A stretch of DNA of 64,000 nt from Halovenus carboxidivorans. Its GTDB lineage: Archaea; Halobacteriota; Halobacteria; Halobacteriales; Haloarculaceae. Each line of letters starts with the position of its first letter. The stretch's first letter is position 1. The position numbers and the translations under genes are program-made. The notes under the pieces were generated by a model. It had not been told where the DNA came from and did no database searches. It saw only the letters and a list, made by a program, of their open reading frames with translations. Location of the stretch: NCBI RefSeq assembly GCF_009831575.1, contig NZ_WUUT01000004.1:102138-166137 (forward strand). The letters are read 5' to 3'. Shown here piece after piece: positions 7,178 to 14,406 of the stretch.

Positions 7178-9409
7178 TCAGGCGACGACCCGCCGACAGC
7201 CCACTTCCCCCTCGACGGAACCGGTCTGCCACGTCGCTTCGAGTCGGGTCCTGTTCTGGTGGTAGCTTCCGAACGACTGCTCGGCCATCCAGCGGTAATC
7301 GTCGAACGGTGCTCTCCGGGAGAAGGTGACCGGCGTCCAGTGGTTGTAGTTCATGACGCTTTCGTAATCGCCGTCGCTGTACGCTCTGGAGTCGATTCCC
7401 TCGAACGCGGACCGACTCAGGCCGAGAGAGTGGCCGAGTTCGTGCGCGAGTGCGCTCGCCTCGTGAGTCGGCGTTACGCGCTGGCTGAGCGTGCCGTCGA
7501 TGACCATCCAGCTCTGGTCGCCCGTCGACGTGTACGTGAGTCCCGACACCTCGGTCCCCCGGAAGGTGAGCGAGCCGTCGGTCACGAGCAGGTAGTGAAA
7601 GCCAAGCCCCCTGAGAGTCCGATCCTCCGCGATCCGGTCGCCCATCTGGCTCGCCCGGCTGACATCTGGCCGATCCGAATCGCATCGGAAGAAGTGGACG
7701 TTGATCGGACCGACATCGTCCGGCTCCGAGCGGAACGTTTCGGCGACATCGCGGAGTTGGGCCTCGCTCGCCGGCTCCTGACCGCTGACGCTGTCGAGTT
7801 CGACGTACACGTCGGGTTCGCCTGGCGTGACCGACAGTCCGAGATCACGCATCGGTCCCCAGACCAGGTGGTCGAGGTAGCCGTCGCCGCTGGTGTCGGC
7901 CCGCTGCGGATCTGTCCCGAACTCGGCTTCGATCCCGTTCAACAGCCGGTCCTCGTCGTCGTTTCCGAGCGCTCCCAGTTGGCCCTCAGTGACGGTCCCG
8001 TTCGCGACCGCGTCGTCGAGCAATCCGAGCTGTCGGGCCTGCGCCCAGCGTTCGTACCCGTTTCCGCGATAGGGCCGCAGTGCTGCGACCCGTTCGAGGT
8101 AGGCCAGTTCGGTGTCGCCGTACCCGCCGACGGCCAGCGGCCCGGCCAACTCACCGAGCCGCGGATTCGCCGTCGCCGGATCGACCCCGATCTGACGTGC
8201 CATCGGGTCGAGCAGACCGTCGCCGGAGCTATCGACCAGCGCGTCGCTGTCCTCGGTCGTCACGGTCCCGTCTGTTGTCGGCTGTTCGAGTAACGAGAGC
8301 GTGCGAGCCTGTGCGTACCGAGGCGGCACCGCGGTGACGGTCGCGGCTCGTCTGAGATACGTCAGCTCGGTCTCGGTGTACCCGGCATCTGCGAGTCGCG
8401 TCGCCAGGCGCCCCACCGTGGCGTTGTCCGTCCGGTTCGTGAGCCCGATTTCGGCCGCGAATCCCGCGAGCAGTCCGGTGCCGGTCACCTCCAGCCCTGC
8501 GACCACCGCCGGATCGACCGATCCGTCGCCAGCGGCCCCGTCGCGCAGCCCCACGGCGGCGGCCTGCGCCCACAAAGACCGGTTTTTCGAGGCGTTGCTG
8601 ATTCGGGAGAGATACGACAGTTCCGTCTCGGAGTAGCCGTTCGTCGCGAGCGATTCCGCGAGCCCTGAGACGACGGGATGCGAGCCGTTGGGAGCGAGTC
8701 CGAGTTCCCTCGCCGTTCCGTCGAGCAGCCCGTCGCCGGAGCGATCAGCCAGCGCCCGCCGGTCACCGGCGGTGACTGAGCCGTTCGCGACGGACCGGCT
8801 CACGAGGCCGAAGCCGCGAATCTGTGCGCGCTGAAACTCCGAATCGATGCGGGCCGAGAGTCGGTCGAGGTAGGCGAGTGACTCGTTCTCGTACCCGCCG
8901 GCGGACAGTTCCCGAGCGGCGGCCGAAACCGTCGGATACCGTTCCGTCCGGTCGAGGCCGAGCAGTCGGGCCTCCCCGTCGAGCAGGCCGTCGCCGGAGG
9001 TGTCTCGCAACCCGTCTCGAAGTATCGTCTGCCGGGCGGCAGGCGGCGCGGCCAGCACCGCATCGAGCCGAGTGAGTCGTCCCTCCCCGAGGCCGCCGGT
9101 CGCGAGAGAGCGCGCGACTGCATCCCGCTGTGTCGTCCCGACGCTCTCGACGGCTTCGAGTCGATCGACCCAGGCGCGGGCTACTGGTGTCAGTTCGCCG
9201 GAGTCGTCGGTCATCGCGGCGAGAAACGCCGATGCGTTCTCCTCGGACAACGAGGCGGTCGTCCGGTCGACGACACCCGGATAGGTCTGGCCCTCGGCCC
9301 CTCCCGAACCGGAGTTAGCGCCGCCGGGGAGGCCACAGCCAGCCAGCGCGACGACCGAGACGGCGAGTACGACCAGCAGAGTTCGCCTACGGGACTCCGA
9401 CCGCTCCAT
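7178..9409 (-). CDS. Large lipoprotein with about 86-residue tandem repeats and a zincin-like C-terminal domain
   Basis: A 743-residue secreted protein. Residues 9-25 are a signal with lipobox LAGC (Cys25). Residues about 100-510 hold roughly five repeats of 85-90 residues. Each carries an aspartate loop (DxSGDGLLD at 136, 222 and 393, DTSGDGYLD at 505, degenerate at 308 and 483) and a GYxxxELxYLxR helix (172, 258, 343, 430); the loops resemble calcium-binding DxDGDG motifs. The C-terminal domain has HELGHSLGLS (656-665) and a Met-turn-like SVMNYNHW (about 685-692), as in metzincin proteases, but the usual third zinc ligand at 666 is Arg; Asp673 is an alternative. Likely a surface-anchored metalloprotease; substrate unknown. 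Confidence 0.75.
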   Translation of the reverse strand: MERSESRRRTLLVVLAVSVVALAGCGLPGGANSGSGGAEGQTYPGVVDRTTASLSEENASAFLAAMTDDSGELTPVARAWVDRLEAVESVGTTQRDAVARSLATGGLGEGRLTRLDAVLAAPPAARQTILRDGLRDTSGDGLLDGEARLLGLDRTERYPTVSAAARELSAGGYENESLAYLDRLSARIDSEFQRAQIRGFGLVSRSVANGSVTAGDRRALADRSGDGLLDGTARELGLAPNGSHPVVSGLAESLATNGYSETELSYLSRISNASKNRSLWAQAAAVGLRDGAAGDGSVDPAVVAGLEVTGTGLLAGFAAEIGLTNRTDNATVGRLATRLADAGYTETELTYLRRAATVTAVPPRYAQARTLSLLEQPTTDGTVTTEDSDALVDSSGDGLLDPMARQIGVDPATANPRLGELAGPLAVGGYGDTELAYLERVAALRPYRGNGYERWAQARQLGLLDDAVANGTVTEGQLGALGNDDEDRLLNGIEAEFGTDPQRADTSGDGYLDHLVWGPMRDLGLSVTPGEPDVYVELDSVSGQEPASEAQLRDVAETFRSEPDDVGPINVHFFRCDSDRPDVSRASQMGDRIAEDRTLRGLGFHYLLVTDGSLTFRGTEVSGLTYTSTGDQSWMVIDGTLSQRVTPTHEASALAHELGHSLGLSRSAFEGIDSRAYSDGDYESVMNYNHWTPVTFSRRAPFDDYRWMAEQSFGSYHQNRTRLEATWQTGSVEGEVGCRRVVA

Positions 9410-9454: not shown

Positions 9455-10336
9455 TCAGGCGTGGCTTTCGATGAGCGCCGCCACGTCGTCCCAGAAGCCG
9501 TCTTCGTACTTCGTCGCGGTATCGATTGTCGGTCGTGCGTTCGTCTCGTTGACCACGGCCCTGTCGTCGGTGACGAGCAGATCGACCCCCAGCCACGGGA
9601 TGTCGAGCGCCTCGGCCGCCCGTTCGGCCAGCGCCCGCAGTGCCGGATCGAGGCTCACGCCGGTCGCCTCGGCTCCGCGGTGGACGTTGTGTTTCCACTG
9701 ACCCGATTCGAGGGCCTCTTCCGGGAGTCGGCGCTCGACCGCACCCACCACCTCGCCGTCGATCAGCATGACGCGGTAGTCGCGGGCGCCGGGGAGATAC
9801 TCCTGGACCAGAAAGGACTGATCGCCGGTCGCCCGGTAGTCGTGCACCAGGTCGAGATAGTCACAGATGCCCAGGAAGGAATCGAGGTCGTGGGCTTTCG
9901 CGACGCCGACGCCCCGGGTCGTGGAGTTCGGCTTGATCACGACCGGCGGATCGAACTGCTCGAAGGCATCCCGCAGGGCCGACTCGTCGGTCGGATCCGA
10001 GACGACGACCGACTCGGGGACCGGAACTCCGGCGGTCGAGAGGTGAGCGAGCGTTTCGCCCTTGAACCGCGAGCGGAGAATCTCCTCGCGGCCGTTCACC
10101 CAGGGGATGTCGAGTAGACCGTTCGCGACGCCGCCCTCGGCCAGTCGGGGCGGGAAGACGAACCCGACATCGAAGCTCCCGGTCCGCTCGGCGGGTCGGT
10201 ACGCCCGGTCACCGGCGGCGAGCCGGACGGACCGCTCCGCTGTCTCGACGTGCTGGGGGTCGATACCGCGCTCGCGGAGCGGCGATTGCATCCGCTCGTA
10301 CGTTTCGGCGTTGGTCGCCACGGCGAGCTGGAGCAT
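9455..10336 (-). CDS. RimK-like ATP-grasp family protein
   Basis: A 293-residue ATP-grasp enzyme. Visible are the N-terminal pre-ATP domain, the PPVVIKPNSTTRGVGVAKA phosphate-binding lysine and loop (residues about 130-148), QEYLPGARDYRVMLIDGE and the metal-binding WLGVDLLVTDDRAVVNETN near the C terminus. RimK-type ligases form amide bonds, for example by adding glutamate to proteins or cofactors. The ligands are unknown here. It follows the zincin lipoprotein on the same strand with about 45 bases between, which may reflect cotranscription from 10336 downwards. The family is certain, the substrate is not. Confidence 0.85.
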   Translation of the reverse strand: MLQLAVATNAETYERMQSPLRERGIDPQHVETAERSVRLAAGDRAYRPAERTGSFDVGFVFPPRLAEGGVANGLLDIPWVNGREEILRSRFKGETLAHLSTAGVPVPESVVVSDPTDESALRDAFEQFDPPVVIKPNSTTRGVGVAKAHDLDSFLGICDYLDLVHDYRATGDQSFLVQEYLPGARDYRVMLIDGEVVGAVERRLPEEALESGQWKHNVHRGAEATGVSLDPALRALAERAAEALDIPWLGVDLLVTDDRAVVNETNARPTIDTATKYEDGFWDDVAALIESHA

Positions 10337-10436: not shown

Positions 10437-11123
10437 GTGCTCGGCGGTACGGACGACGACGCTACGGTCGAGTTTGAGCGGGCGATCAGCGCCGTTCTGG
10501 GCGTGACGCTGATGGTCGCCATCGTGGTCCTTCTCGCCTCCGTCGTCGCCGGGTTCGTCCTCACCTACGACGATCAACTCCGCGAACCGGAGTTCGACAA
10601 CGCGACCGACGGCAGTATCAACCCCTGGTCGAACACCGACGCGTTGCTCGCTCCGAGAGATCCGACCGCCGGCGCCGAGAACGTTCGGTACCGCGTCCGG
10701 ATCGAGATCAAGGACGCGAACATGGAGGGGGACTCGCTCAACGAACTCGACGTGTCGGTGACGACCTCAGACGACATGTTCAGCGGCACGAGCGCGAGTG
10801 ACATCGAGTCCTTCGAGGTCGAGAAGACCGACGGGACGACACTCGACATCGAGAGCGACGTGGACGGCTGGGTCGTCAGCGACGGCGGCAGCAGCCTCCA
10901 GATCCAACTCTCCGGCAGCGAGTACACGAACCCCTCGACGGGAGACGTCATCACGGTCGTCTTCGACGGCGTCGCGAACCCGAACGATCCGGACACCTAC
11001 GACGTCACCGTCGTCCTCAACGAGGGCGAAGACGAACAGAGCGGGGAACTGGAGATTCTCGCCCGGACCGAGTCGATCCGTGCCCGTCCCGCGGAACGCG
11101 CCGGACTGGTCGCGGCTCACTGA
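10437..11123 (+). CDS. Type IV pilin-like protein
   Basis: A 228-residue protein with a class III signal: a short acidic leader, then the hydrophobic stalk RAISAVLGVTLMVAIVV (residues about 19-35), as in archaeal pilins cut by a prepilin peptidase. The remainder is a beta-rich acidic domain with Thr/Ser/Asp runs, probably exposed at the surface. Start is GTG 10437, chosen because a strong TATA-like CTATTAAAAC (10407-10416) lies about 25 bases upstream. The gene ends convergently with the histidine kinase, overlapping by 7 bases. Role: probably adhesion or a minor pilin subunit. Confidence 0.8.
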   Translation: MLGGTDDDATVEFERAISAVLGVTLMVAIVVLLASVVAGFVLTYDDQLREPEFDNATDGSINPWSNTDALLAPRDPTAGAENVRYRVRIEIKDANMEGDSLNELDVSVTTSDDMFSGTSASDIESFEVEKTDGTTLDIESDVDGWVVSDGGSSLQIQLSGSEYTNPSTGDVITVVFDGVANPNDPDTYDVTVVLNEGEDEQSGELEILARTESIRARPAERAGLVAAH

Positions 11124-12808
11124 CTGACATCCGCCGCGACTGTCGCGTTGGGAAAGGAGAGTACGATCTCTCCGTCCTCGAAAGAAATATCACCGCCGAA
11201 GCCGGTCGCCAGCCACCGGGCCGTCCACAGATCGACGCCCGATGTGTGTTCTAACGGTGTCTCCGTCCCGGTCTCGATCACTTCCCGGTCGATCTGTGGC
11301 ACGCCGGGGCCGTTGTCACGGATCGAGATCCGGAGCGGATACGTCCGCTCGGCGTCGTAGTCGGCGCGCAGTTCGACGGCTGGCTGTTCGGAGTCGTTGT
11401 TGTCGAGCGTCCGCTCGATCAGCGACCGAAAGACGAGGTCGAGTTGGTCCGGGGCAACTGGGACGCCGACAGCGACGTCGGCCCTGTACTCGAACTCGGC
11501 GTCGTACTCCGCCCGGAGATCACCGAACAGCCCGGTTATCAGCGGTTCGATCCGCGTCGTCTCGCCCGGGTCGGTGTTCGTTCCGAGCAACTGCGTCGAT
11601 TTGCGCGCTCTGTCGGAGAGTTCTGCCAACTCCTCGGCGGTGTCGGTGATCCGTGCCACTCCATCGAGCGCCGCGGGATCGTCGACACGGTCCTCGATCA
11701 CGTCGGCGTAGCCCATGATGACGGAGAGATCGTTCCGCAGGTTGTGTCGCAGCAGTCTGTCGAGCACGTCCAGCCGCTGTCGTCTCGTCCGGCGGTCGGT
11801 CACGTCCTGGAAGACGGCGGCGTGGCCGAGCGGGTGGCCGTGTCGGTCGCTGAGGTCGGACACCGTCGGCTCGAACAGCACGCGACCGGTCTCCGATTCG
11901 ATCTCGACGATTCGTCTCTCTCGGAGGTCGGCCAGCCCAGCACCGAGCGACCGCTTGAGCGTCTCCCCGACGACGCGGTCCGACCAGTCGAACTCCCGGC
12001 GGGCCGCGGGGTTCAGTTCGACGATCACTCCGTCGGGATCGGTGACGACGACGGGATCGTCGAGTTCCTCCATGATCGTCGCCGGGCCGACGTTTCCGGC
12101 CGCCGGCACCCGACTGAACAGCCCCGGCGGGCCGACCAGTGCGACCGCCGCAACCGTTTTGAACCCGTAGCCGGCGGCGAGGAGGACACCGAACCCGACG
12201 AACGAGGTGGGTTCGAGTTGCAGGGCAAAGAGAATCGCGAGCCACGGGATCGCTCCGAACGCACAGAGAGCGATCCCGGTCGTCGAATCCAGGTGGCCGT
12301 ACCGCTGGAACATCCAGAGGACGAGTCCGGCACCGACGAGGACGAGCCCGCCGGCGTACAGCAGTGCGCCCCACTGGACGAGTTGCAGCACCGTGACGAT
12401 AACCGCAAGCAGGCCGGTCAGTTCCGCCCGGGCTCCGAGACTGAGTTCGGGAATCGCCGCTCCGACGTACAGCGTCAGCGTTGCCGACAGTCCCGCGAGC
12501 ACCGGCACCGACAACAGCCCCGCGATCCACGTCGAAACCAGTGACTCCTGACCGACGTAATCGAGGGCGAACAGCACCCACGGGACCGGAAGGAGCAACG
12601 CGATGCTGATCGTCGTCCCGAGGATCAGAAAAAACCGTTGTGCGGCGAATCCAAACGCGAGATAGATGCCGCCCAGCCCGGCGAGTCCCGCGACGACGGC
12701 GAACAGGTTCGCCGCGGGGGCGTCGACCGACCGCCAGCCGGCGACTGCCGCCGCGAGCAAGAGCACGCCGACACAGAGAAAAATCACTGCGAAGCCGCCG
12801 AAGATCAC
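11117..12808 (-). CDS. Multi-TM histidine kinase with PAS domain
   Basis: Sensor kinase of 563 residues from GTG 12808. Residues 1-225 contain about seven or eight TM helices, 240-340 a PAS-like domain (PVVVTDPDGVIVELNPAAR), 350-400 the dimerisation helix with phospho-acceptor His355 (LLRHNLRND) and 440-556 the ATPase with DNGPGVP (498-504). The N-box is loose (SLIERTLDNND) and the G2 box reads HTSGVDLWTARWL, both commonly variable in haloarchaeal kinases. The longer frame to 12961 is rejected: a TATA-like element (minus strand, 12831-12840) sits about 27 bases before GTG 12808. It diverges from the KaiC-like gene across a region holding a 23-bp direct repeat. Confidence 0.85.
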   Translation of the reverse strand: MIFGGFAVIFLCVGVLLLAAAVAGWRSVDAPAANLFAVVAGLAGLGGIYLAFGFAAQRFFLILGTTISIALLLPVPWVLFALDYVGQESLVSTWIAGLLSVPVLAGLSATLTLYVGAAIPELSLGARAELTGLLAVIVTVLQLVQWGALLYAGGLVLVGAGLVLWMFQRYGHLDSTTGIALCAFGAIPWLAILFALQLEPTSFVGFGVLLAAGYGFKTVAAVALVGPPGLFSRVPAAGNVGPATIMEELDDPVVVTDPDGVIVELNPAARREFDWSDRVVGETLKRSLGAGLADLRERRIVEIESETGRVLFEPTVSDLSDRHGHPLGHAAVFQDVTDRRTRRQRLDVLDRLLRHNLRNDLSVIMGYADVIEDRVDDPAALDGVARITDTAEELAELSDRARKSTQLLGTNTDPGETTRIEPLITGLFGDLRAEYDAEFEYRADVAVGVPVAPDQLDLVFRSLIERTLDNNDSEQPAVELRADYDAERTYPLRISIRDNGPGVPQIDREVIETGTETPLEHTSGVDLWTARWLATGFGGDISFEDGEIVLSFPNATVAADVSQ

Positions 12809-12856
12809 GTTCGAATCTCGGAAGCACCCGTAGTAAATATTGCGTCCGTGACGGTC

Positions 12857-12911
12857 CCCGCGACTCACTCTCGTGACTGCCGGGTACGCCCGCGACTCAC
12901 TCCCGCGACCG
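12857..12911. promoter_or_regulatory. 23-bp imperfect direct repeat between divergent kinase and KaiC-like genes
   Basis: Two copies of a 23-bp element at 12857-12879 and 12889-12911 share CCCGCGACTCACTC exactly and differ at only three later positions, all T/C transitions. The copies start 32 bases apart, about three helical turns, so both face the same side of DNA. They lie upstream of the minus-strand kinase promoter (TATA near 12835) and within 100 bases of the KaiC-like start. I infer an operator or activator site for one or both genes; the binding protein is unknown. Confidence 0.45.
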
Positions 12912-12954
12912 CTCGGGAAGATACACAACGCATTTGCCTTTTCCTCACCCGTAT

Positions 12955-14406
12955 ATGACAATGACAGCGCAGGCGCTCCCCCGGATCTCGAGCGGTATCC
13001 CGGGCCTCGATACGATCCTTCGCGGCGGGATCGTCGAGGGGCGGATGTACCTCATCTCGGGAGAACCGGGGACGGGAAAGACACTGCTTGGGATGTCGTT
13101 TCTCGAAGCGGGGCTGGAGGAGGGCGAGACCGCCCTGTTCATCCACGGCGAGGAGTCCCGCCAGGACATCCTGGACAACGGCCGACAGGTCGGAATCGAT
13201 CTGTCGGACGCGGCCTATCTCGATCTCGGTCCGGATTCGGAGTTCTTTCGCGGCGAGCAGTCCTACGAACTGGTCGACCCCCGCGACATCGAGAGTGAGC
13301 GTACGATCGAGCGGATCAGAACCGCCATCGAGGAACGTGATCCGGACCGAATCCTGTTCGATCCGATCACGCAGTTACAGGCCATCGAACCCGACGAGTA
13401 CCAGTACCGCAAGCGACTCGTCTCGTTCATGCGGTTTCTCCAGGGTCAGGGCGTGACCGTCCTCTCGACACAGACGCCGGGGACGAGCACGGACGCGACA
13501 GTTCGCTCGCTCAGCGACGGTGTCATCCGGTTGGAACGGGAGGCGACCGGTCGACGGATCGCCGTCGAGAAACACCGCGGTGTCGGCCAGCGAGACGGTA
13601 CACACGGCCTCGAAATCCGCGAGGCGGGGCTGGAGGTCTATCCGGCGCTGGACCCTGCCGGCACGCAGTCGGTCGATCCAGAACAGCTCTCGACCGGTCT
13701 CGAGGAGTTCGACGCGCTGCTCGGCGGCGGTATCGAGCGCGGCACCGTCACCGTCCTCGCCGGGCCGACCGGCGTCGGCAAGACGACGCTGGCGACGAAA
13801 CTCCTCGAAGCGGCCGCGGCCGACGGCCGGCCGGCCAGCATGTACCAGTTCGAGGAGGCGGTCGAAACCCTCCGGCACCGCTCGGCCGCGCTTGGAATCG
13901 ATCTCCCGACCGACGACGAGCTACGACTCGCCGAAATCGAACCGCTCGCCCTCTCGCCCGAGGAGTTCGCACGTCGGGTCAAGCAGGACGTCGACGACCG
14001 CGGGACGGAGTTGATCGTCATCGACGGCACCGAGGGGTATCAGCTCTCCCTGCACGGCGAGGGGAGAGATGTCGTCCGCTCGCTGCACTCGCTGTGCCGG
14101 TATCTCACCGGGCGAACCGTCTCGGTCGTCCTGATCGATCAGAGCGCACACTCGAGCGCCGCAACCGGACCGACGAGCGAGAACTTCAGCTATCTCGCGG
14201 ACAACCTGGTCGTTCTGAACTACATCGAACGGGAGGGGCGAAAGGAGCGGGTCGCGGGCGTCATGAAGAAGCGACTTGGCGACCACGAGGAGACCGTTCG
14301 ACCGTACACGCTCGACTCCGACGGCATCGTCATGCGGGGACCGGAGACCGACGTCGAGGGGTTCCTGACCGGGACGCCGACCTACAGGCGGAGCGGCGAG
14401 GAATGA
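12955..14406 (+). CDS. KaiC-like double-domain RecA-type ATPase
   Basis: About 483 residues with two KaiC domains. The first has Walker A GEPGTGKT (36-43) and catalytic Glu66-Glu67 (HGEES); the second has GPTGVGKT (270-277) and Glu300-Glu301 (QFEEA). The intact Walker and Glu pairs suggest hydrolysis in both domains. Archaeal KaiC homologues are not proven clocks; several act as signal-transduction ATPases. The start is ATG 12955 or 12961; upstream codons lack family sequence. The stop overlaps the start of the next kinase gene (ATGA at 14403-14406), so the two products are almost certainly made together and may form a complex. Confidence 0.88.
   Translation: MTMTAQALPRISSGIPGLDTILRGGIVEGRMYLISGEPGTGKTLLGMSFLEAGLEEGETALFIHGEESRQDILDNGRQVGIDLSDAAYLDLGPDSEFFRGEQSYELVDPRDIESERTIERIRTAIEERDPDRILFDPITQLQAIEPDEYQYRKRLVSFMRFLQGQGVTVLSTQTPGTSTDATVRSLSDGVIRLEREATGRRIAVEKHRGVGQRDGTHGLEIREAGLEVYPALDPAGTQSVDPEQLSTGLEEFDALLGGGIERGTVTVLAGPTGVGKTTLATKLLEAAAADGRPASMYQFEEAVETLRHRSAALGIDLPTDDELRLAEIEPLALSPEEFARRVKQDVDDRGTELIVIDGTEGYQLSLHGEGRDVVRSLHSLCRYLTGRTVSVVLIDQSAHSSAATGPTSENFSYLADNLVVLNYIEREGRKERVAGVMKKRLGDHEETVRPYTLDSDGIVMRGPETDVEGFLTGTPTYRRSGEE

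Follow-up and report, generated by a model that had tools for sequence, protein, structure and literature searches.

What kind of protein pairs the HELGH signature of a zinc protease with an arginine at the expected third-ligand position, and what are the tandem repeats that precede it? The question is raised by a single-copy gene of Halovenus carboxidivorans, located within a 64,000-nucleotide stretch of contig NZ_WUUT01000004.1 (positions 102,138 to 166,137; the whole stretch is referred to here as the window). The closest named relatives found are from Halovenus aranensis and H. rubra (genus Halovenus, family Haloarculaceae). The features assigned to this gene are given below in window coordinates, with the basis of each assignment in brackets.

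7178..9409, minus strand: whole gene, encoding a predicted lipoprotein metzincin of 743 aa (translation)
9335..9409, minus strand: signal peptide with lipobox LAGC and predicted lipidated Cys25 (sequence reading)
9020..9289, minus strand: N-terminal helical domain, residues 41-130 (full-length AF2 model, pLDDT about 80-90)
8780..9037, minus strand: repeat unit 1, residues 125-210, DTSGDGLLDG at 136 (self-comparison, DNA copies, TSP3-like profile)
8522..8779, minus strand: repeat unit 2, residues 211-296, DRSGDGLLDG at 222 (self-comparison, DNA copies, TSP3-like profile)
8264..8521, minus strand: repeat unit 3, residues 297-382, decayed loop EVTGTGLLAG at 307-308 (self-comparison, loop-position reading)
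8000..8263, minus strand: repeat unit 4, residues 383-470, DSSGDGLLDP at 393 (self-comparison, homologues, tree, AF2)
7862..7963, minus strand: TSP3-like loop pair, residues 483-516, NDDEDRLLNGIEAEFGTDP...DTSGDGYLD (alignment with TSP3 pairs of relatives)
7265..7837, minus strand: metzincin catalytic domain, residues 525-715 (profile searches, AF2, fold search)
7430..7444, minus strand: HELGH, residues 656-660, predicted to supply two zinc-binding His and the catalytic Glu (49-row alignment)
7412..7414, minus strand: Arg666, at the usual third-ligand position of HExxHxxGxxH/D, unconserved in the family (64 distinct sites)
7391..7393, minus strand: Asp673 of G-I-D, predicted third zinc ligand (49-row alignment and active-site segments)
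7346..7360, minus strand: Met-turn SVMNY, residues 684-688, with a possible Tyr switch, Tyr688 (49-row alignment)

Gene context and fold of the catalytic domain

The gene had been predicted to encode a lipoprotein, and the signal peptide and LAGC lipobox with Cys25 bear this out; a lipobox-type Cys is present in homologues too. The RRR ahead of the hydrophobic stretch suggests Tat export. The small helical domain that follows was taken from a full-length AF2 model, built from five sequences, which had a pLDDT of 43 and was used for residues 41-130 alone. At the other end of the protein (window 7178-7270), the C-terminal tail, GEVGCRRVVA, is unlike the short tails of homologues, and that of homologue L005 is long and Thr/Pro-rich.

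The protease gene is preceded, 45 bp upstream and on the same strand, by a RimK-like ATP-grasp gene (window 9455-10336), and a shared transcript is possible. Adjoining genes (window 10437-14406) encode an archaeal type IV pilin-like protein, a PAS histidine kinase and a two-domain KaiC-type ATPase-like protein. The notion of a conserved neighbourhood as a functional link was dropped, as the genes around homologues L045 and L046 differ from the neighbours of the window gene.

The AF2 model of residues 384-731 showed a pLDDT of 68 overall and of about 80 around the active site. The alignment used was a third version (A12); its rows for L047-L049 have their TSP3 lead-ins out of place. A fold search covering the protease part of the model gave acutolysin A in VIA-align (Z 11.6, rmsd 3.9, 163 aligned residues), with adamalysins and ADAMs at Z scores of about 10-11.6 over about 165 residues and all 50 matches listed being metzincins, as were the top Foldseek matches. 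Profile searches of solved structures likewise listed only metzincins for the catalytic part, each of these matches being weak. No Pfam or NCBIfam model was above its cut-off for the window protein, including the curated Pfam cut-offs of M10, M12B, M64 and M43; Reprolysin_4 scored best in Pfam, at 18.7 bits for the full protein and 21.0 bits for the domain alone (cut-off 22). Homologue L036 passes Peptidase_M10 in Pfam (26.7 bits against a cut-off of 24). The modelled C-terminal domain thus has a metzincin fold, which, with HELGH at 656-660, upholds the original prediction of a metalloprotease-like domain. Across the clan (adamalysins/ADAMs of M12B, matrixins of M10, serralysins, snapalysins and igalysins of M64), this fold is common over about 165 residues, and the HExxHxxG active-site helix and SxMxY Met-turn are shared with the window protein.

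Repeat units and TSP3-like loops

Ungapped self-comparison of residues 111-480 gave scores of 225, 147 and 123 at offsets of 171, 86 and 85, far above the maximum of 53 obtained with 300 shuffles. Pairwise Smith-Waterman comparisons among the four units reached z values of 9 to 30 against shuffles, with identities of 31-44%, and copies at a 258-nt spacing were found at the DNA level (66-84% identity over 31-72 nt), independent of translation. The predicted tandem repeats are therefore real. Tandem Repeats Finder reported no repeat on the DNA, and the duplications are therefore old.

The four units comprise 86, 86, 86 and 88 residues (88-90 for unit 4), which agrees with the expected period of 85-90; four full units were identified, however, and not five. 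In the translation, the loop motif occurs at residues 136, 222, 307-308 (decayed), 393 and 505, and the GY..xE signature at residues 172, 258, 343 and 429. The signature positions first reported (136, 222, 308 and 393) were thus recovered, with the last GY shifting to 429-430, whereas the signature at 483-505 does not represent a further repeat. This segment is a TSP3-like pair (483-516) lacking the helical segment, and its acidic columns are invariant when aligned with the TSP3 pairs of relatives.

The loops, for which no published counterpart had been suggested, were scored as TSP3-like with a loop profile built from 16 TSP3-type motifs of wider-family members, the repeat-bearing subfamily being left out. 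Against shuffles, those at residues 136 and 222 reached 15.5 and 9.5 (p at or below about 0.001), and that at residue 393 was marginal (3.0; p 0.06). The window protein gave no TSP3_bac match in Pfam. Relatives carrying the same protease, L047 and L008, match TSP3_bac at 1e-24 and 2e-13, respectively, and the nanohaloarchaeal L047 has a long plain TSP3 array in place of the repeat units. The window loops resemble bacterial TSP3 (TSP3_bac, PF18884), and the Dx[DN]xDG calcium loops (PMC3123361), in loop sequence and, in relatives, in the place before the protease domain. They differ in that each is followed by a predicted helical segment of ~60 residues and in that position 3 is Ser instead of Asp/Asn.

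The proposal that these are calcium-type loops holds in part. Units 1, 2 and 4 have D, S, D and D at loop positions 1, 3, 5 and 9, whereas unit 3 has lost nearly all ligand positions; not all four units can therefore bind calcium. Every unit carries Ala at position 12, so that the Glu of DxDxDGxxDxxE is missing throughout, whereas H. aranensis and H. rubra keep an acidic residue there in their last units. Judged from these residues, calcium binding is plausible for three units and unlikely for unit 3, and, given the losses at position 12 and in unit 3, it may be weak or lost.

In the AF2 model of residues 384-731, the first 60 residues of unit 4 reached a pLDDT of about 90; the loop is flanked by helices on both sides, and there are three more helices. 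A Pfam search of the repeat units returned nothing except one chance match, in line with the earlier statement that the whole repeat belongs to no named family, and a PDB sequence search with the whole protein returned no match. Designed TPR proteins, to which the repeat profile gave weak PDB matches, were set aside as generic helix similarity. The new part is the helical segment between the loops, together with its copy number.

The repeat unit was detected by profile search in 6 of 391 haloarchaeal genomes, each time before the same protease domain. Its number varies: four in the window protein, three each in L003/L045 and L004/L046, and one each in L005, L036 and L037. Unit 4 is the counterpart of the single unit in distant homologues. 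When 13 units were placed on a tree, the last units clustered, with weak support, and the order of duplication was not resolved; inner units have long branches, and for every inner window unit the one nearest in identity is window unit 4. This pattern suggests expansion from the last unit, and the simplest reading is that a single ancestral unit beside the protease was copied repeatedly in the Halovenus lineage.

Such a series could also serve to bind a substrate or partner, or act as a latency (pro-) domain, instead of forming a calcium-stiffened spacer. The units are mostly helical with weak profile matches to designed TPR-like repeats, the loops of the window protein are partly degraded and the inner units sit on long branches, all of which would suit this reading. 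We nevertheless regard it as unlikely, though deserving some weight, as the loop acids at positions 1, 5 and 9 are kept in three of the four units and the plain TSP3 array of L047 occupies the same place. A spacer is the reading preferred here.

The third zinc ligand

The H, E and H of HELGHSLG (656-663) are present in 49/49 aligned relatives and G663 in 48/49; similarly, Ser and Met of the Met-turn are found in all 49 and its Tyr in 48. The third ligand of the HExxHxxGxxH/D pattern is absent in the window protein, which carries Arg three residues past the glycine. Described metzincins are represented by HExxHxxG/NxxH/D, with the third ligand three residues past the glycine, or with one extra residue before it in IgAse, and preceding the Met-turn (PMC12237041).

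The original prediction was correct in that residue 666 is Arg. Position 666 is occupied by A (14), N (11), P (11), S (8), G (8), D (4), E (4) and F, R, H and K (1 each) among 64 distinct sites; as the family shows no conservation here, finding an Arg does not indicate that a ligand has been lost. Conversely, Asp673 in G-[IV]-D is present in 48/49 aligned relatives; in this alignment, no other residue able to bind metal is nearly invariant in the stretch from HExxH to the Met-turn. GxD follows a loop of 5-9 residues in 63/64 distinct active-site segments from relatives. The remaining segment, that of L096, carries a His in this loop, a single case that would be compatible with ligation. The puzzle is most likely solved by the family alignment, which points to Asp673, seven residues past Arg666, as the ligand. 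The predicted ligand would thus lie 10 residues past the glycine, as opposed to the His/Asp three residues past it in the clan.

Leishmanolysin (M8) offers a parallel, in that an insertion of about 60 residues past the glycine displaces its third zinc ligand, a His, from the active-site helix; the loop of the window family is shorter (5-9 residues) and its predicted ligand is Asp. A sister subfamily found with the same profile (L100-L107, L110 and L112-L119; n=17, from haloarchaeal genomes) carries HELLHN-VxG followed by a variable loop, past which a His before G[WFY]L is conserved in all 17 sequences. No Met-turn was seen in these 17.

Asp673 might instead be structural in an active metzincin, with the third ligand supplied by another residue, such as Asp704 past the Met-turn, or by water. 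Asp704 is D or E in 48/49 rows as well, and the ligand role of Asp673 is read from conservation. We consider this reading rather improbable, since the third ligand of metzincins precedes the Met-turn (PMC12237041), where the GxD Asp alone is nearly invariant, and since the sister subfamily has its His at a comparable place past the variable loop in 17/17 sequences. A pseudoprotease that kept its fold as a binding or structural surface protein, having lost zinc chemistry through an Arg at 666 where described metzincins have His or Asp (PMC12237041), is very improbable, as this position is unconserved family-wide and the window copy keeps HExxH, the GxD Asp and the Met-turn, some of which would probably have been lost in an inactive enzyme. 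Asp673 is accordingly retained as the predicted ligand.

The protease family and its proposed role

A profile of the catalytic domain (A5) matched 91 of 391 haloarchaeal genomes from 26 genera; the sister subfamily and a number of partial matches contribute to this count. In the sample searched, the profile was rare beyond the haloarchaeal class, with one genome of the same phylum and the nanohaloarchaeal contig L047; no relatives were found among the viral contigs searched, and no description of this family was retrieved from the literature collection searched. Haloarchaeal TSP3-metzincins (L008, L010, L029, L047 and others) have the same catalytic domain and the same TSP3-like lead-in, and differ in lacking the 86-residue helical unit. 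L048 (263-1858) encodes a lipoprotein, from a Halobacteriales MAG, that appears to contain two copies of the lead-in and of part of the protease domain, the first copy lacking HExxH.

The window protein is most likely a lipid-anchored haloarchaeal metzincin that is active and extended by a spacer. Judged from its sequence, the protein would be exported and then lipidated at Cys25, presenting in turn the small helical domain, four units of 86 residues, each combining a TSP3-like loop with a helical segment, the TSP3-like pair and the catalytic domain. Intact loops may bind calcium and thereby stiffen a rod that would keep the catalytic domain away from the membrane, its reach being set by the number of units. 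His656, His660 and Asp673 would be the ligands of the catalytic zinc and Glu657 the putative base; Met686 sits in the Met-turn, and Tyr688 might stabilise the transition state. Of this picture, the repeats and their variable number, the metzincin fold and the conservation of the active-site residues are computed results, whereas proteolytic activity, the zinc role of Asp673, binding of calcium and the spacer role are inferred. In our estimation, it is reasonably probable that this is an extracellular zinc protease of the metzincin clan, anchored in the membrane and carried on a spacer built of repeats. More tentatively, and with confidence a little short of even, we propose that the haloarchaea have a metzincin family whose zinc motif is shifted to HExxHxxG-x(5-9)-GxD, and that one of its lineages has multiplied a calcium-loop-plus-helices unit as an adjustable membrane-protease spacer.

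If this is right, a whole family of haloarchaeal proteases escapes the pattern HExxHxxGxxH/D, and such enzymes could be mislabelled as inactive. The unit number, varying among close relatives, would then constitute a natural series for relating spacer length to the working of a surface protease on an S-layer-covered cell.
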